Assembly: GCA_947623915.1 (NCBI GenBank)
Contig: CANQIB010000018.1
Location: 1 to 49,903 of the forward strand
Length of the DNA: 49,903 nt
Origin: an uncultured Ruminiclostridium sp.
Lineage (GTDB): Bacteria; Bacillota; Clostridia; Oscillospirales; Ruminococcaceae
Reading direction: 5' to 3'
Shown here: piece after piece, positions 1,290 through 11,528 of the stretch
Position numbering within the stretch: position 1 is the first letter of the stretch
How the letters are laid out: the number at the start of each line of letters is the position of its first letter
Notes under the pieces: generated by a model
Database searches by the model: none
What the model was told of the DNA's origin: nothing
The model's input: the letters and a program-made list of their open reading frames with translations, nothing else
Made by a program: the position numbers and the translations under genes

Positions 1290-1934
1290 ATGGACGTTAT
1301 CATCTCTGCGTCTATGCTGGCGAGCGATCTTGCAAGGCTCTCCGACGAGCTGGAACGCACGGCGAACGCCGGCGTCGAATGGCTTCATATAGACGTCATG
1401 GACGGAGTTTTCGTTGATAATATAACCTACGGCAACAACGTCGTAAAGGCGCTGCGCCCGATAAGCGGATTATTCTTTGACACACATCTTATGGTATCCG
1501 ACCCCACCCGCCTTATCCCGCGTTTTGCCGAGGCGGGGAGCGATATGCTCACCATACACGCCGAGAGTGGGGGAGATACCGCCGCAAATCTTGCCGAAAT
1601 AAGGCGGCTGGGTATGCGCGCGGGACTGGCTGTAAAGCCGAACACCCCGACGGAAAGCATATACCGTTATCTTCCGCTGTGCGACATGGTGCTGATAATG
1701 ACCGTCGAGCCGGGCTACGGCGGACAGAGCTTCCGCACGGAATGTGCCGAAAAGGTGCGCGCCCTTAAAGAACGCTGCGACAGGGACGGGATAAAAATGC
1801 AAATAGAGGTGGACGGCGGCATAAACGCCGAGACCGCCCGTATCGCAAAAGCCGCCGGAGCGAACGTGCTGGTAGCGGGGACGTATCTCTTTCGCGCTCA
1901 GGATATGAAAATCGCCGCCGACGCGCTGAGATAA
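1290..1934 (+). CDS. rpe: Ribulose-phosphate 3-epimerase
   Basis: This cytosolic TIM-barrel enzyme interconverts ribulose 5-phosphate and xylulose 5-phosphate in the pentose phosphate pathway. The 214-residue length is normal. Family signatures are clear: SASMLASD at the N-terminus, HIDVMDGVFV with the metal-binding His and Asp, DTHLMV, the MTVEPGYGGQSF phosphate loop, and EVDGGIN near the C-terminus. GAAAGGCGG lies before the ATG. It is the first gene downstream of the 1125 promoter and lies 39 nt before the rnfD-like gene, so they may share a transcript although their functions are unrelated. Confidence 0.96.
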   Translation: MDVIISASMLASDLARLSDELERTANAGVEWLHIDVMDGVFVDNITYGNNVVKALRPISGLFFDTHLMVSDPTRLIPRFAEAGSDMLTIHAESGGDTAANLAEIRRLGMRAGLAVKPNTPTESIYRYLPLCDMVLIMTVEPGYGGQSFRTECAEKVRALKERCDRDGIKMQIEVDGGINAETARIAKAAGANVLVAGTYLFRAQDMKIAADALR

Positions 1935-1973: not shown

Positions 1974-3260
1974 GTGAAAAACGATGAGCTTCTCAAAAAA
2001 ATAGATGACGCGCCGCTGCTCATGACGACCGAGGCGGCACGCAAAAAGCTGCGAAAGCCGCGCAGCGTTTACGGCGACCAGATAATACTTATGCTCGCCG
2101 TTACCGTGATGGCTTTTTGCCGCTACGGCGTGCGTTCGCTGGCGGTATGCGCCGTGTCGGTGCTGTGCTGTGTGCTTACCGACATGATAGGCTGTTTTCT
2201 TTCCAAAAAAGAATACGGTCTTAAAGACCTGTCCACCATCGCTTACGGGCTCGCGCTCTCTTTGATGCTGCCCGCAAGTGTGCCTTACCATATAATAGCG
2301 ATAGGCTCGGTGCTTGCGATAACCGTCAAGCATATTTTCGGCGGAAAGGACAACTATATATTTAATCCCGCCGCGGTCTCGATAGCCTTTCTTATAATGT
2401 GCTATCCGCAGGAGGTGCTGCTTTATCCCACCTCTTCCGCGGGACTGGAGCTGTTCGACACGAGCGGCGCGGTGCTTTCAAACGGCATAGAGAGTTATTT
2501 TATAAAGACGGGAGCTATCCCCGCGCTGACCCCGCTGGAAATACTTATGGGTAATTTTGCCGGACCGATGGGCACGACGCATATCCTTGTGCTTGCGGTA
2601 AGCGCCGTTTGCCTTATCTGCCGCAGGAGCGTTTCTCTTGCCGCGACGGTAGGCGGACTCAGCATGATGGCGGCGGTCTCCTATCTGCTCGACCCCTCTG
2701 TAGACGCGCTGGCGTTCCAGTTTATAAGCGGGTTCGTGCTGTTCGGATTTATCTTCCTTGCCAACGACCCGCAGACGCTCCCACTGACTAACGGCGGCAG
2801 GCTGCTGTACGGGCTGTCGCTCGGACTGATAACCTCGATATTCCGACAGACCGCGCAGATAGAGGGAGTTTTCGTATTCGCGCTGCTGATAGTAAACGCG
2901 CTGGCGCTGTACTTCGACCGACTGGCATTTAACATCACGGTCGGTATAAAACGGCTCATCTCTTATCTGAGAGAAAATCTCGGCTCTTACGAACGAATAT
3001 CGAAAAACGTCAAGCAGGGCAAAACGCCGGAGCTTACCGACACGCAGGAAATACTTATCGAGCCGGTAAACTACAATATGCCGCCCATTGACAGCAAGGT
3101 GACAAAGATAAAACGGAAAAAGCATATCAGTATAAAAGATTCCGTAAGCGACTTGAAAAAGCGTCTGAAACGCAAGGAGAAAGGAAAGGAGGCGGACAGC
3201 GTTGGCACAGCAGATGCCGAAAATGAAAAAGCTGAGGGAGAAAAAACCGATACGATTTGA
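1974..3260 (+). CDS. RnfD/NqrB-family membrane subunit, divergent
   Basis: The product has 428 residues, with about ten membrane segments of the RnfD/NqrB fold between about 40 and 325 and family features such as the KHIFGGKDNYIFNPAA loop. Canonical RnfD carries FMN bound to Thr in an S/T-GAT motif; here the corresponding stretch reads DTSGAVLSNG, so the Thr appears to be lost. A highly charged, Lys/Glu-rich cytoplasmic tail of about 95 residues follows the last helix and is not typical. The start is GTG at 1974, behind AAAGGATGG with a rather long spacing. The gene overlaps the next one by 59 nt, which indicates coupling. Family membership is secure; an electron-transfer role is not. See the finding on this trio. 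Confidence 0.85.
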   Translation: MKNDELLKKIDDAPLLMTTEAARKKLRKPRSVYGDQIILMLAVTVMAFCRYGVRSLAVCAVSVLCCVLTDMIGCFLSKKEYGLKDLSTIAYGLALSLMLPASVPYHIIAIGSVLAITVKHIFGGKDNYIFNPAAVSIAFLIMCYPQEVLLYPTSSAGLELFDTSGAVLSNGIESYFIKTGAIPALTPLEILMGNFAGPMGTTHILVLAVSAVCLICRRSVSLAATVGGLSMMAAVSYLLDPSVDALAFQFISGFVLFGFIFLANDPQTLPLTNGGRLLYGLSLGLITSIFRQTAQIEGVFVFALLIVNALALYFDRLAFNITVGIKRLISYLRENLGSYERISKNVKQGKTPELTDTQEILIEPVNYNMPPIDSKVTKIKRKKHISIKDSVSDLKKRLKRKEKGKEADSVGTADAENEKAEGEKTDTI

Positions 3261-3885
3261 CCGCAGCCTGCTGGACGGACTGGCAAAGCAAAACGTCGTG
3301 CTGATGACAGGAATAGTGAACGCCCCCGTGGTAATAGCCGCCACCACCTTTAAAAAAGGCACGGTAATAGCGCTGGCGTTCGCCTTTATCTCCATGCTCA
3401 CGATATTTATCTGTTCGTTCGTCCCCAAAAAGATAGTATACACCCTCAGAGTAATAATATATGCTCTGGTAGGCTCGGTGATATATATACCCACCGTACT
3501 TGCGCTGGAGGAGATATTCCCCCGCACGGTCGGGCTGATAGGCATATATATGCCGCTGATAATCACAAACGCGCTCATATTTTCCAAGACCGAAAGCCGC
3601 TTTTATCTTAGAAAGCGCGGGGAAATGATGATAGACGTTTTCTTCTTCTCGGTGGGATTCGGCGCGGTGTCCGTCATCGTGGGAATGCTGCGCGAGCTTA
3701 TAACCATGGGCAGCATCGCGGACGTAAAGCTGGCGGAGCTGAACATTTCCGCGTTTGAAGCGCCGTTCGGCGGATTTATCATGGTGGGCATAATGGCGGG
3801 GGCGTTCCGCGCTCTTTATAATTACGCCCGAAACCGCCGCATAAAACAAAACCAACTGCAAAAAGATAAAAACGGGGAGGCGTAA
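3202..3885 (+). CDS. RnfE/NqrD-family membrane subunit, divergent
   Basis: The product has 227 residues and about six membrane helices, with RnfE-like motifs (GIVNAPVVIAATT near 45 and PLIITNALIFSKTES near 130). In Rnf/Nqr complexes the equivalent positions hold two cysteines (GxC and ITNC) that help bind an intramembrane [2Fe-2S] centre. Here they read V (or N) and A, so the ligands are absent. The start is TTG at 3202, preceded by AAGGAAAGGAGG at 3181-3192, and lies inside the 3' end of the rnfD-like gene in another frame. The rnfA-like gene follows after 2 nt. Probably it pairs with that subunit as an inverted heterodimer, as in NqrD/NqrE. Confidence 0.85.
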   Translation: MAQQMPKMKKLREKKPIRFDRSLLDGLAKQNVVLMTGIVNAPVVIAATTFKKGTVIALAFAFISMLTIFICSFVPKKIVYTLRVIIYALVGSVIYIPTVLALEEIFPRTVGLIGIYMPLIITNALIFSKTESRFYLRKRGEMMIDVFFFSVGFGAVSVIVGMLRELITMGSIADVKLAELNISAFEAPFGGFIMVGIMAGAFRALYNYARNRRIKQNQLQKDKNGEA

Positions 3886-3887
3886 AA

Positions 3888-4481
3888 ATGGATATACTCG
3901 TCGCCTTCATCACCACCGCAATGACGGCAATGTTCGTCGAAAACGCCATATTTGCACGCGCGCTCGGCACAAGCGTGGCGTTCTACGCCTCGCGCAAGAC
4001 CGACAACATGATAGGTCTCGGACTGGGCATATTGTACGTCACCACCGTTTCCTGCTTTATCACCTACTGGATAGACTGCCTGATGTATGAAAACGAATGG
4101 TACTGGATAGTAATGCCGCTTATCTATACCGTCGTGATAAGTATAGTATACACCGGCACCTTGCTGCTTATCTGGAGATTTTTGCCCAAGCTGTTCAAAA
4201 GCATAAAAAAATACGTTCATCTTTCGGTGTTCAACGCCGCCGTACTGGGCGCGCTGTTTTTGAACGAGGTCTATCACGGCAGCCTTATAGAATATCTCGG
4301 CTTCGGAGTCGGTCTGTCTGCGGGCTTTATGATAGCCGTGTTTTTCCTGCATATCGCCAACGAGCGGCTCAATTCCGAGCTTGTACCGGCGGCGTTTCGC
4401 GGTATGCCGATAATGATGGTGTTCATCGGTATACTGTCGCTGGCTTTTTACGCGCTGACCGGATATAATACCAGCGCCTGA
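3888..4481 (+). CDS. RnfA/NqrE-family membrane subunit, divergent
   Basis: The product has 197 residues and six predicted membrane helices. The first-helix motif reads ENAIFARALGTSVAFYASRK, where canonical RnfA/NqrE has FLG(I/M)C(P/S)FL; the Cys is Ser here. The second signature reads LSVFNAAVLGALFLNE in place of the usual TNCAVLG; the Cys is Ala. Both Fe-S ligands of this subunit are therefore missing. GGGGAGG precedes the ATG and the spacing from rnfE is 2 nt. The D-E-A order without rnfB, rnfC or rnfG nearby is unusual. I see no other redox motif in the protein. Confidence 0.87.
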   Translation: MDILVAFITTAMTAMFVENAIFARALGTSVAFYASRKTDNMIGLGLGILYVTTVSCFITYWIDCLMYENEWYWIVMPLIYTVVISIVYTGTLLLIWRFLPKLFKSIKKYVHLSVFNAAVLGALFLNEVYHGSLIEYLGFGVGLSAGFMIAVFFLHIANERLNSELVPAAFRGMPIMMVFIGILSLAFYALTGYNTSA

Positions 4482-4516: not shown

Positions 4517-5737
4517 ATGAAACGAAAAGGCATCAAGATCAAACGTAATCACAAAAATCTATACGGCAAGCGCAAGAGCAAGGGCAGAAAAGTCGCCGAG
4601 GTCATACTGCTCATAATCATCGTGGGCGGACTGATATTTTTGGGCTATTCCGTCGCGCCCACCGTCATAAATTTCTTCAAAACGCAGGCGGAGGAAAGCC
4701 AAACGGAAAGCGAGCCCGCATGGACTCCTCCCGTATCCTCCGAGCCGCAGACCACGCCGCCTCAGACCTCAGGCACGCCCGCCTCCGACCCGTCGGAAAG
4801 CAGCGTTCCCGAAGAGCAGGCGCAGCTCGTGCTGTACGCGCCGGACGGCACTCTGAAATCGGCGGATACGCTTAAAAAATACCTCGACTCGGTAAAGGGC
4901 AAATGCAGCGAAGTGATATTCACGCTTAAAGCGCCCTCCGGCGAACTGCTGTATAAGTCCTCGGTCAAGACCATATCCGACATTTCGGAAATAAACACAG
5001 GCACGCTGACGCTCACCCAGATAGCCGACGCCTGCAAAGCCGCGAATATACGCCCCTGCGCCGCGATAAGCACGCTTATGGACAACTTAGCGCCGCGCTG
5101 GCTGGATAACGTGGGCTACCACGCGACGGCGGGCTGGATGTGGCTGGATAACTACGCCGACAGGGGGGGCAAGCCGTGGGCGGATCCCATGTCGGAGGAG
5201 GCGCGGGATTATCTTTCCGCCGTTGCGGCAGAGGCGGCAAAAGCCGGATTTGAAAGCGTAATACTTCAAAACACCATATACCCGCCGTTTAGGGCTTATG
5301 ATTACGGTCTGCTTCCGTCACGGGTACAGGCGAACGACCGCAGCGACTACCTTGCGCAGACCGCCTCGGAATGTGCGGCGGCGGCAAAAGGCTCACAGAC
5401 TTATATCGAGATAGAAGCCGACGAGCTTATCGCCGCGGCGGCGACGGATTATGACGCGAGCGCCGAGATATGGCAGAGCGCGGCAAAAGCCGAGAACTGC
5501 GAAATAATAATAAAGATCGACTCCGAGCTGTTCGGCTCAGAGATAACACTTTCCTCCGGCAAGACGCTCAAGGTGCAAAAAGCCGCCGATAAGGCGATAA
5601 CTCAGCTTGCGGGCGAAATAAAGAAGATAACCGGCAGCACCCCGATAAGTCTGCGCATAAGCGGCATTACCGAAAAGGACACGGCCGCCGTCGCGGCGGC
5701 GGAAAGCGCCGGCTGCGATGCCGTTATCGTCGGCTGA
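4517..5737 (+). CDS. Membrane-anchored glycoside-hydrolase-like protein (DUF4015 type)
   Basis: The product has 406 residues. A very basic N-terminus (1-25) is followed by one membrane helix (about 28-50), a Pro/Ser/Thr/Glu linker (about 55-100) and an extracellular TIM-barrel-like region from about 103. The pattern LVLYAPDGTLKSADTLKKYLDSVKGKC, then RPCAAISTLMDN and GFESVILQNTIYPP, recalls the putative glycosyl hydrolases related to YngK (DUF4015), but I could not identify catalytic carboxylates. AAAGGAG precedes the ATG. It lies 35 nt after the rnfA-like gene and may be cotranscribed. The substrate is unknown; a cell-envelope polysaccharide is a guess. Confidence 0.6.
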   Translation: MKRKGIKIKRNHKNLYGKRKSKGRKVAEVILLIIIVGGLIFLGYSVAPTVINFFKTQAEESQTESEPAWTPPVSSEPQTTPPQTSGTPASDPSESSVPEEQAQLVLYAPDGTLKSADTLKKYLDSVKGKCSEVIFTLKAPSGELLYKSSVKTISDISEINTGTLTLTQIADACKAANIRPCAAISTLMDNLAPRWLDNVGYHATAGWMWLDNYADRGGKPWADPMSEEARDYLSAVAAEAAKAGFESVILQNTIYPPFRAYDYGLLPSRVQANDRSDYLAQTASECAAAAKGSQTYIEIEADELIAAAATDYDASAEIWQSAAKAENCEIIIKIDSELFGSEITLSSGKTLKVQKAADKAITQLAGEIKKITGSTPISLRISGITEKDTAAVAAAESAGCDAVIVG

Positions 5738-5836: not shown

Positions 5837-6196
5837 ATGACAGAATTATTGACCTTGATGTCGAGCGGACAGACCGCTACCGGCGCGGCAAACGGACAGG
5901 GCAATCCAATGAGTATGCTGGTTATGCTGATACCGCTCGTGCTTATGATAGTTATTTTCTATTTCCTTATCATAAGACCCGAAAAAAAACGCTCCAAGAA
6001 AATGAAAGAGATGCTGGATAATCTTGAGGTAGCCGACGAGATAGTCACCGCGGGCGGTATAATCGGACGTGTGCTGAGCGTTAAAGAAGATACCGTACTT
6101 ATCGAAACCGGCAGCGACAGAACAAAGATAAGAGTGCTGAAAAGCAGCATAGCCGAAAACAGAACGGTACACGATACCCAGGAAGAAAGCAAATAA
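5837..6196 (+). CDS. yajC: Preprotein translocase subunit YajC
   Basis: This is the small accessory subunit of the SecDF-YajC module. The 119-residue protein has one membrane helix (about 27-47, MLVMLIPLVLMIVIFYFLIIRP) ending in the conserved RPEKKRSKKMKEM motif, then a soluble domain with the family hallmark VTAGGIIGRV and IRVLKSSI. GAAAGGACG precedes the ATG. It has its own promoter and terminator, so it is monocistronic here; secD and secF are not adjacent. Confidence 0.95.
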   Translation: MTELLTLMSSGQTATGAANGQGNPMSMLVMLIPLVLMIVIFYFLIIRPEKKRSKKMKEMLDNLEVADEIVTAGGIIGRVLSVKEDTVLIETGSDRTKIRVLKSSIAENRTVHDTQEESK

Positions 6197-8719: not shown

Positions 8720-11528
8720 AGTTTTTTTCCTCCTTTTCGCCGCTAAACGGCATATTCTCTGTTTCGCCGTCCTCGTCGAACGGCATAACCTCTGTTCCGC
8801 CGTCATCATCAAACGGCATATCCTCCGCCAAAACCGGTTTTTCTCTGTCGGAGCTTTTGGAAAGCACCACCGGCGCGGATATTTTGCGGTATATCACTAT
8901 CATCGCAATAAACAGCGCGATACCCGCGAGTGTAGCAATAAGCGCGGCGGGATAACCCGCAGGCGTGAACCTTAATTCTATCCTGTGCCGCCCCGCGCTT
9001 ATATCAAACGCCATGAGCGAACCGTTCAGCACCGGCACGCACTCCGCCTTTTCCCCGTCTATTCTCACCTCCCAACCTTTTTCGTAAGGCACGGTGGTAA
9101 ACAGTGTTCTGTCCGCGTCGGCGTTTACCTCAACGTCTATCGCCGTTGAGGATACGCGCTCCACCACCGTTTCGGCGTTCATCGCGCCGAGCGCGGCTAT
9201 CGCTTCTTTCTCGGCGTTTTCGTCAAACACCGCGAACTGCGGCTGCTTATAGTAAAGGTCGCTGCGGTTGAGCGCCAGCTTTACGTTTATGCTTTCCCCC
9301 GCGGAAAAGCTGCCGAGCAGCTTGATATTGTGGTTGTCCGATTCAAACAGCACGTCCTTATATTCACCGTTGACATATACATATACCTCCCGCTCATAGT
9401 CGGTGGGGATATACATATATACCTCCCCGTCCTTGGGCGTGGTGATATTGTACGATACCGACGCGTCCTCTCCCGCATCGGTAAAGCCGATATGTCCGTC
9501 CGCAAAATTTCCCTGCGTGCAGCCTATCGCTATCGGCTCTCCGGCGGGTATATCGGTATATATACCCGAACAGTCCGTGCCGGTAAGCGCGCTTAAAAGC
9601 GCGGTCTGGTTTGCAAATGGGGTATATTTATCCAACTCCAGTCCCTTTACCTCGGAGGAGGAAAGGTACATTATCGGCAGCGCGTCGGGGTTTTCCTCAA
9701 CGGTTATCTTGGAGGGGTCGCCCTTTATCTCGTCGCGGCCGTACGGCGCGTCAAGTATGTACTTTACGCCGAAAATATCGGCGGTGAGCGGCGTATAGCC
9801 GGAAAATCTGGTGTAATGTCCGTTTGAAGTAAAGCCGAAACAGCCCAGCATATCTATCGCCGCCGCGTTAAGCGTGCTGCTGGAATGGGACAGCCCGTAC
9901 ATTCCGGTAGCTATAGGATCGTTCACGGTGCGGTAGAATTTCTTTTCTATTCGGTAAAAGCCGTCGTCCTGCCGCTTTATCTCCGCTACCTTTTCCCTTA
10001 AAGGCACTATCACGTCCACATAGCTTTCCTTAGTGGAAAAAACTATATCCTCGTGCATCTTGTTAAGGGTGTTGGAGGTGTTGAAGCTCATCTCTCCGCC
10101 TATCACCGCCGTCAGGATTATTACGGCGGCGGTGCCTATCTCACCGCGCTTTTTTTGCTTGCAGACCCAAGCTGCCGCGACGGCGGCCGCCGTTACGAAT
10201 ATTATCGCGGGCAGCGCCACGGTAACGGAATCGAATACCTCCCGTCCCGATTCGCCCAGCGTTTCTATAAAAGTATCTCCGCCCTCGATAAGGATTATCG
10301 TCCCGATAAACACCAGCGCGGATATTGCGACCGCGCGCGTGCGCACCCGCCCCAGCTTTTCAAACATAACGGCGGCGGCGGTTATCATTACGAGCGACAG
10401 CATAAAGGAATAACGGTACGGCAGCCAGTTAGGCACTTGTCCGCCGTGCCAAAGCATATCCACCGGCTTTATATACATGCAAAGCGTCAGCACCGCCAGC
10501 AGTCCCGCGGTGGAAAGCCGTCTTGCGGCGGGTATTTTTCGGCAAAAGAAGTATACCCCTATCAGCACCAGCGTAAGCGAGCCGCAGAAGATAAACGGCA
10601 TACCCTCCATTCGCACGGTGTCATAGCTGTTCACAAACAGCTTGCGCAGCATATCCTGAATTACAAAATTCCCCGTAAGCGAATAATCCGGCACGGTAAA
10701 ATCAAATTTTCCGTTTTGCAGCGAATGGTATACGGGCACCAACATAAAGCTGCTGCACAGCGCCGCCGTAATGCCGGACGCTCCCACCAACGCGCCTTTT
10801 GCGAAAAACCGCGCCGCGTTCTTTTTAACGCCGGCTTTATAATCGGCGCAGGCGAAAAACTCCGCGATATAGTACAGCACCGTAAATATCGCTATCATGA
10901 AGCCTATATAAAAATTGCTTACAAAAGCATATATCAGCGAGCCGGTCAGCAGGCGAAAACGGTTATGCTTTACCGCCGATTCCACTCCCCAGCATACCAG
11001 AGGCAGCACCATCACTCCGTCCAGCCACATCGGATTTACCGTCTGTACGACGGAATACGCGCACAGCGCGTACATCAGCGAAAACATTATCGCCGTGCCC
11101 TTTTCCGTGCCGCGCCCTTTGTGAAGATAAAGCGCCGTGATACAGCCGCAGGAGGCGAGCTTTGCAAGTATCATGCACATAAGCCCGTCGGTTATCATCT
11201 CACGCGGGAACAGCCAAACGATGATATTGAACGGACTTGCCAGATAATACCCGATTATCCCGAAAAATTCCCCCGAAAGATTCCGGCTCCAGGAATAAAA
11301 CAAGCTCTCCCCGTTGTGTATAACGTCGTACATATAGTCGTAATAATATACATACTGTGCGTTCAGGTCAAGAGCCAGCACCGACCTTTCGCCGAAAGGC
11401 TGTATCTGAAAAACGGCATAGCAGCCGAACATCAGCAGCGCGGGTATGAAAAACGCCGCGAACAGGTACCCGTTATTGTAAAGCGACGACCTGATGTTTC
11501 TCAGGCGGTCGGCAGCAGTATTTGTCAA
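8703..11528 (-). CDS. yfhO: YfhO-family membrane glycosyltransferase (GT-C fold)
   Basis: This is a 941-residue integral membrane protein. The first helix (about 17-37) is followed by the family signature FGERSVLALDLNAQYVYYYDYM, about 12 helices to residue 490, a large extracellular beta-rich domain (about 500-870), a final helix (about 875-895) and an acidic tail with three repeats of E(D/V/N)MPF. Characterised YfhO proteins of Bacillus and Listeria transfer sugars from an undecaprenyl carrier to lipoteichoic acid outside the cell, together with CsbB. The start is TTG at 11528, chosen because GGAAAGGAAA precedes it and TTGA overlaps the csbB stop; an extension to 11588 runs deep into csbB. 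The acceptor polymer in this organism is inferred. Confidence 0.88.
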   Translation of the reverse strand: MTNTAADRLRNIRSSLYNNGYLFAAFFIPALLMFGCYAVFQIQPFGERSVLALDLNAQYVYYYDYMYDVIHNGESLFYSWSRNLSGEFFGIIGYYLASPFNIIVWLFPREMITDGLMCMILAKLASCGCITALYLHKGRGTEKGTAIMFSLMYALCAYSVVQTVNPMWLDGVMVLPLVCWGVESAVKHNRFRLLTGSLIYAFVSNFYIGFMIAIFTVLYYIAEFFACADYKAGVKKNAARFFAKGALVGASGITAALCSSFMLVPVYHSLQNGKFDFTVPDYSLTGNFVIQDMLRKLFVNSYDTVRMEGMPFIFCGSLTLVLIGVYFFCRKIPAARRLSTAGLLAVLTLCMYIKPVDMLWHGGQVPNWLPYRYSFMLSLVMITAAAVMFEKLGRVRTRAVAISALVFIGTIILIEGGDTFIETLGESGREVFDSVTVALPAIIFVTAAAVAAAWVCKQKKRGEIGTAAVIILTAVIGGEMSFNTSNTLNKMHEDIVFSTKESYVDVIVPLREKVAEIKRQDDGFYRIEKKFYRTVNDPIATGMYGLSHSSSTLNAAAIDMLGCFGFTSNGHYTRFSGYTPLTADIFGVKYILDAPYGRDEIKGDPSKITVEENPDALPIMYLSSSEVKGLELDKYTPFANQTALLSALTGTDCSGIYTDIPAGEPIAIGCTQGNFADGHIGFTDAGEDASVSYNITTPKDGEVYMYIPTDYEREVYVYVNGEYKDVLFESDNHNIKLLGSFSAGESINVKLALNRSDLYYKQPQFAVFDENAEKEAIAALGAMNAETVVERVSSTAIDVEVNADADRTLFTTVPYEKGWEVRIDGEKAECVPVLNGSLMAFDISAGRHRIELRFTPAGYPAALIATLAGIALFIAMIVIYRKISAPVVLSKSSDREKPVLAEDMPFDDDGGTEVMPFDEDGETENMPFSGEKEEKNYDTDG

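Follow-up and report, generated by a model that had tools for sequence, protein, structure and literature searches.

What can an Rnf-type membrane trio do once the ligands of its iron-sulphur cluster and of its bound flavin have disappeared? The question is raised by positions 1974–4481 of the stretch of DNA analysed here, hereafter the window (positions 1–49,903 of contig CANQIB010000018.1, assembly GCA_947623915.1). Three genes on the forward strand encode D', an RnfD/NqrB-like membrane protein of 428 amino acids with a GTG start (1974..3260; PF03116, 1e-50), E', an RnfE/NqrD-like protein of 227 amino acids with a TTG start that overlaps D' (3202..3885; PF02508, 2.8e-23), and A', an RnfA/NqrE-like protein of 197 amino acids with an ATG start (3888..4481; PF02508, 1.4e-27). 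Prime marks (D', E', A', C', GH') denote window-type proteins, set against those of canonical Rnf. RnfD/E/A-type membrane proteins are therefore present at the locus in Rnf order, and each scores under the NCBIfam cut-off for rnfD, rnfE or rnfA. In the AlphaFold2 model of D' (predicted local distance difference test, pLDDT, 79), all 15 Foldseek matches with E below 0.001 were RnfD/NqrB proteins (TMt 0.56–0.83), and a weak resemblance to urea and ammonium channels was also seen. The identity of the trio as Rnf relatives without cluster or flavin mononucleotide (FMN) ligands is well supported. We tentatively propose that it represents a third Rnf/Nqr offshoot, in which a membrane unit uncoupled from redox chemistry responds to ions and works with a TIM-barrel partner in the envelope, a reading that we favour and would place somewhat below an even chance.

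In RnfA/NqrE and RnfE/NqrD, four conserved cysteines bind an intramembrane [2Fe-2S] cluster, and RnfD/NqrB carries FMN on a Thr. The corresponding columns were read from alignments to solved Rnf/Nqr chains and from a family alignment. In A', the first cluster Cys is replaced by Ser29 (codon 3972..3974, forward strand, as are all codons given here) and the second by Ala117 (4236..4238); in E', the alignments place Ala124 (3571..3573) at the second Cys, and the family alignment places Ala41 (3322..3324) at the first, where an alternative alignment gives N40. None of the four cysteines is thus present in the window. The FMN site of D' falls on Val167 (2472..2474), L168 or I172, depending on the alignment, and in none of them is it a Thr. 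The remaining cysteines of A' (56 and 64) and E' (71) show no conservation among close relatives, so the cluster cysteines have not merely shifted. A first-pass annotation of the window had given the same frames and coordinates exactly, and had read Ser and Ala at the A' sites, no cluster Cys in E' and no FMN Thr in D', all of which the alignments bear out. Its further claim that all redox ligands were lost holds for the cluster cysteines and the FMN Thr; it fails for the riboflavin site, since D' retains the Asn and the Asp that correspond to A. woodii RnfD N123 (Asn131, 2364..2366) and RnfD D249/NqrB D346 (Asp265, 2766..2768), and with both present a putative riboflavin-binding site remains.

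The losses extend across the clade. The ligand counts cover 78 A', 76 E' and 75 D' proteins, after removal of seven loci that duplicated others from the same genomes. The first RnfA Cys was absent from 78/78 sequences, each of the two RnfE cysteines from 76/76, and the second RnfA Cys from 36/78, being retained in the other 42; FMN Thr was found in 4/75 D'. Per locus, 34 of 76 carried none of the four cysteines and 42 exactly one. A shift of the cysteines across the clade was considered and rejected: a Cys within six columns of the three always-lost ligand columns was found in 3, 6 and 11 of 76 loci. All Cys and Thr ligands were present in 37 of 37 canonical-type loci, a retention that is partly by construction because this class was assigned after gene neighbours and motifs had been inspected (for L017, motifs alone). 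An independent test was provided by a tree of D, E and A built with the ligand columns excluded, in which a single branch separated 69 prime from 37 canonical rows (Shimodaira–Hasegawa-like approximate likelihood ratio test 100); this tree came from a quick search with no bootstrap, was rooted on the canonical rows, and contained some long branches and flagged compositional outliers. The first prime branches were L098, then L090, then L094 with L106 (backbone supports 100, 84 and 97), all of which carry C', an RnfC-like protein. Clade-wide ligand loss and a separate branch both agree with the earlier suggestion of a derivative without a transmembrane redox chain.

The trio is under purifying selection. 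Nine further genomes carry it, with identities of 59–83% for D, 66–87% for E and 72–85% for A; frames are intact in all nine apart from one D cut by a contig end. A glycoside-hydrolase-like gene and yajC follow in 9/9 and rpe precedes in 8/9, the ninth contig ending inside D. Pairwise ratios of nonsynonymous to synonymous substitution rates (dN/dS) were 0.10–0.17 for D, 0.10–0.15 for E, 0.06–0.13 for A, 0.20–0.29 for GH and 0.09–0.19 for rpe, with dS set to 3 for pairs whose synonymous sites were saturated.

In a sample of 197 genomes from the window's family, counting the matches listed (query A8 at 124.7 bits or more, query A9 at 154 bits or more), A'-level genes occurred in at least 139 and GH' in at least 150; the lowest A' scores in this sample overlap the canonical range. 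The system is also present at five loci outside the family, drawn from four further families of the order (L088, L090, L094, L098, L106). Beyond the family, a class search of 291 genomes gave, among the matches listed, none above 94.2 bits, and a phylum search of 299 genomes gave, among the matches listed, none above 117.6 bits (canonical range) except the window; RnfA cysteine motifs occur in each of the nine best-scoring loci that rank under the window in the phylum search. A divergent prime protein could be hidden inside the canonical score range. Among the best 240 A' homologues of 1,222 and 325 matches in a search of 5.8 billion proteins, G[ILVMAST]CP occurred in none and the NC motif in 142; some of the homologues from this search are labelled Rnf subunits by their sources. 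The A' of Allofournierella and Ruthenibacterium lack the first cluster Cys.

Canonical rnfCDGEAB with its ligands was found on another contig of the window genome (G000:C4), so both Rnf forms coexist there. The reported absence of rnfB, rnfC and rnfG is true at the locus, none of them lying beside the trio; they are present elsewhere in the genome, accompanied by canonical D, E and A proteins of their own, which fall across the tree from the window proteins. Ten prime-bearing genomes were selected because earlier tallies had hinted that most were without canonical Rnf. In eight of them, one 97% and one 94% complete, two Rnf-Nqr matches in the prime score range were found, with no canonical RnfA/RnfE and no rnfB above the cut-off. 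The rnfB model missed G089, which has canonical A and E, and G001 has an rnfB-like match below the cut-off (61 bits). Because the ten genomes are 66–97% complete and the rnfB model missed one of them, the evidence for independence from canonical Rnf is moderate.

The trio is followed by GH' (4517..5737, forward strand; PF13200, 3.9e-11), an N-terminally anchored, DUF4015-derived TIM-barrel protein. Its AlphaFold2 model (pLDDT 85) comprises a helix (22–62), a low-confidence linker and a barrel (103–405), and its nearest Foldseek neighbours are Cwp19, PgaB and a DUF4015 structure. Model and structural neighbours thus both indicate a TIM barrel. A full-length DUF4015 domain was not found in the window GH', where the PF13200 match spans 3–142 of 313; in the relative L098 it spans 1–313. 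GH' retains K138, D189, W221 and E239 and has lost most of the polar residues shared by 30 genuine DUF4015 proteins; the Asp that follows strand 4 in DUF4015 is Gln251 in the window protein and is kept in 8 of 28 GH'. The first-pass annotation had suspected a link between the trio and this anchored glycoside-hydrolase-like protein, and the genes are indeed adjoining in 122 of the 123 genomes in which both GH' and A' were listed, the exception having A' at a contig end. In several families, DUF4015-type genes also lie 3' of canonical rnfB (L115:791-2068, L092:1496-2434, L099:1180-2187 and L102:1349-2392), three of the four lacking several residues conserved in genuine DUF4015. In one family from the class search, each of the five genomes that match DUF4015 carries the match, by coordinates, within 3.5 kb of canonical rnfA. 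The DUF4015-Rnf link may be older than the ligand loss, and DUF4015 is not generally tied to Rnf.

The description of the locus as D-E-A only is true of the window locus, which proves to be one state in a longer reduction series. C' was read in 18 loci (L049, L052, L053, L055, L057, L060, L062, L063, L066, L073, L076, L078, L080, L090, L094, L098, L106 and L107), all 18 with two CxxCxxCxxxC motifs; C' genes also occur at L170, L173, L175, L176, L177 and L195, the motif counts covering the other 18 loci. The glycine-rich FMN/NADH loop pattern was matched by none of the 18 C', a strict pattern that the canonical-type RnfC of L017 also fails. An rpe-D'-E'-A' arrangement without GH' exists as well. 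The term redox-free is overstated, given the persisting riboflavin-site residues and the two 4Fe-4S motifs of the RnfC-like protein found in many members; what stands of it is the loss of the cluster and FMN ligands under selection.

Other functional positions have been retained. In A. woodii, R67 and E115 of RnfE form a Na+ ion pair, accompanied by L103 and N107, and N123 and D249 of RnfD belong to the riboflavin site (PMC11889175, available part). E' of the window retains the ion pair as Arg83 (3448..3450) and Glu131 (3592..3594), and the E'/A' pair of the window keeps both the Arg-Glu pair and the leucine gate used for Na+ by A. woodii Rnf. Among the prime loci, the RnfE positions are conserved in 65 (R67), 57 (E115), 62 (L103) and 59 (N107) of 76. 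The gate positions of NqrB are Phe in 72 (F342) and 71 (F338) of 75 D', F338 being Leu in 25 of 37 canonical proteins, and the D397 position is Asp in 68 of 75. The riboflavin residues are kept in 51 (N123) and 56 (D249) of 75 D', and nine D' have neither residue, some of them being gapped there; in C'-bearing loci the D249 position is D in 13/18 and E in 5/18.

From these observations we infer the following mechanism. In an ancestor of the order, an rnf copy would have lost rnfB and rnfG, and with them electron entry and the outer flavin carrier; the [2Fe-2S] ligands of RnfA/RnfE and the FMN Thr of RnfD would have gone along. Many lineages would have retained C' with its two 4Fe-4S motifs, and the window's lineage would have dropped C' too. 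The remainder would be D', with its channel-like fold, and the E'/A' pair, beside a one-helix extracytoplasmic TIM barrel, GH', which would occupy the former place of RnfG with the same topology of one helix plus an outer domain. Ion binding or an ion gradient, rather than electron transfer, might switch E'/A'/D', and this switching could control or move GH' on an amino-sugar cell-wall polymer. The link to the wall is drawn from the fold neighbours of GH' and from genes found upstream of rpe, a WalRK-like two-component pair in three of nine regions and an HtrA-type protease in two. That an ion-gating core without an electron chain would act on a surface pseudo-glycosidase as an actuator, either gated by ions or powered by a gradient, unlike known Rnf/Nqr, is the boldest form of the proposal, and we regard it as unlikely.

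Several observations weigh against an ion-responsive unit coupled to GH'. RnfA Q85, E88 (NqrE E95), T110 and T111 are mostly changed in the prime proteins. In loci without C' the ion pair is well kept (R67 54/58, E115 51/58) and the riboflavin Asn is present in 34/57, whereas in loci with C' the Asn stands in 17/18 and the ion pair is relaxed (R 11/18, E 6/18); as these sequences are related and hence not independent of one another, we treat the contrast as no more than a lead. As the riboflavin residues persist, a flavin role is possible. For A. woodii, the driving of Na+ binding is attributed to the cluster itself, and a case has been made against Na+ conduction through RnfD (both in the available part of PMC11889175). 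We infer, rather than observe, that D', E', A' and GH' form one complex, and the WalRK-like genes, nearest to WalK/YycF among the models tested, score far below the NCBIfam cut-offs. Of the 139 genomes listed with an A'-level gene, 16 had no GH' listed; among 20 loci retrieved as exceptions, 14 have GH' without D', E' or A' (11 of them near rpe), and an RnfB-like frame lies within 1.5 kb of a genuine DUF4015 in 4 of 30 loci only. The coupling of GH' to the trio is therefore not obligatory, and GH' as an obligate partner was not upheld, each occurring without the other. The remaining exception loci comprised one with D' and GH' alone (L174) and five with full C'D'E'A'-GH'; of two batches of 20 loci, one was chosen entirely and the other mostly as exceptions, so these batches are uninformative on frequency.

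The same observations can be read in other ways. D'E'A' might be a non-transporting scaffold that does no more than fix GH' (and C') in position in the membrane, serving wall metabolism as an assembly platform. The loss of the cluster and FMN ligands, the loss of most conserved DUF4015 residues from GH', the tight adjacency, and the persistence of GH' where C', and in some cases the trio, has disappeared are all consistent with such a platform; the gate Phe, the Asp at NqrB D397 and the ion pair of C'-less loci, all kept, argue against it, as does the membrane helix that GH' appears to own in the model, and we consider this account doubtful. The persistence of the riboflavin residues, with the Asn in nearly every C'-bearing locus, and the paired CxxCxxCxxxC motifs of C' instead suggest a residual one-flavin redox device, in which D' would bind riboflavin and receive electrons from C' or, in the window, from some other donor, E'/A' being structural. 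However, the FMN/NADH loop pattern was matched by no C', C' is missing from the window locus, both riboflavin residues are missing from nine D' and no trans-membrane cofactor remains, which makes such a device rather unlikely.

Two further explanations are disfavoured. The canonical rnfCDGEAB of the window genome would allow the trio to act as spare or regulatory subunits swapping into canonical Rnf, but the eight selected genomes without canonical RnfA/RnfE or rnfB above the cut-off, and the separate branch, render this very improbable. A decaying duplicate would account for the lost cluster and FMN ligands and for the partial losses in some lineages; intact frames, dN/dS of 0.06–0.17 and the presence of A' in so many genomes of the family speak against it, and decay, against which the first-pass annotation had also argued, was rejected on the dN/dS values as hardly credible. 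The redox-uncoupled, ion-responsive unit remains the reading that we prefer.

Beside these main subjects, the locus offered several further observations. The charged C-terminal tail of D', about 95 residues long and noted earlier as unusual, is real and is kept in close relatives; most other prime D' are shorter, and the tail was rejected as a clade-wide feature. AlphaFold2 models it mostly at low confidence, with one helix. Within the tail (window 2990-3260), a stretch at about residues 340–381 is conserved among close relatives and is possibly a cytoplasmic docking site. The frequent upstream neighbour rpe, encoding ribulose-phosphate 3-epimerase (1290..1934, forward strand; TIGR01163, 1.3e-71), is considered unlikely to belong to the complex, and yajC (5837..6196, forward strand; TIGR00739, 2e-26) is a downstream neighbour mainly in close relatives. 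The WalRK-like genes upstream of rpe lie at L209:5236-8886, L212:5666-9659 and L214:7333-9623, with HtrA in L209 and L212; no conserved upstream operon beyond rpe was found, the other six of nine regions carrying other genes. Between rpe and D', but on the other strand, L209 has a MecA-like gene (10135-10896, minus strand; Pfam MecA, 7e-19), and another in L013 (5346-6056, minus strand) was judged from position and resemblance alone. GH' without detected D', E' or A' was seen at L158-L169, L171, L172 and L197, with rpe adjoining in 12 of 15; these are lineages where the TIM-barrel protein has outlived the trio. In L178, from a genome of 1.0 Mb (G102), A' lies beside rpe with no D' or E' on the contig; a second Rnf-Nqr match lies on G102:C34, and canonical Rnf was not found in this genome.

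The prime clade constitutes a natural experiment: it has dispensed with the cluster and the bound FMN but conserved the membrane core, and could allow ion gating to be examined apart from the complete redox chain. It also draws attention to an envelope system widespread within a single order of largely uncultured, gut-associated bacteria. In the open PMC literature, the scope of our search excluding subscription papers and preprints, no cysteine-free Rnf clade and no DUF4015-Rnf link was found, and the available parts of the review PMC12174285 and of the structure paper PMC11889175 make no mention of such a clade; they do record a dispute over whether ions pass via RnfA-E or RnfD. The sole paper found to contain the word DUF4015 names it, in the part available, in a supporting-information legend, fused to YkyA (PMC12700454). 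F. duncaniae is described as having two putative rnf operons, rnfCDGEAB and rnfDEA (CG447_09840-830), the latter being counted with an NADH:ferredoxin oxidoreductase (PMC10781979, available part). Likened by its gene trio rather than by its sequence, rnfDEA likely belongs to the prime clade. The clade cautions against taking each rnf-like gene trio for a second energy-conserving complex, a reading that may have been made for Faecalibacterium.

Compared with known systems, the window locus shares with the Rnf complex the homologous D, E and A subunits, their gene order and the RnfD fold of D', and differs from it in having no B, G or C, no [2Fe-2S] ligands, no FMN Thr and a branch of its own. 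With GH', the DUF4015 (PF13200), PgaB C-terminal domain and Cwp19 proteins have the TIM barrel in common, although the window protein matches the N-terminal half of DUF4015 alone and most conserved polar residues are changed. With the Na+-translocating NADH:quinone oxidoreductase (Na+-NQR), the resemblance lies in the gate Phe and Asp positions of NqrB, which are kept in D'. An NqrA-F set with NqrF is absent from the window locus, NqrF not having been sought in the rest of the genome. Na+-NQR keeps [2Fe-2S], FMN and riboflavin and recruited NqrF, whereas the window locus has no cluster or FMN ligands and has, as is usual in the prime clade, a TIM-barrel neighbour. Since NQR has been proposed to come from rnf duplication and loss of rnfB (PMC4014512, available part), the prime clade would be a parallel branch that has gone further.

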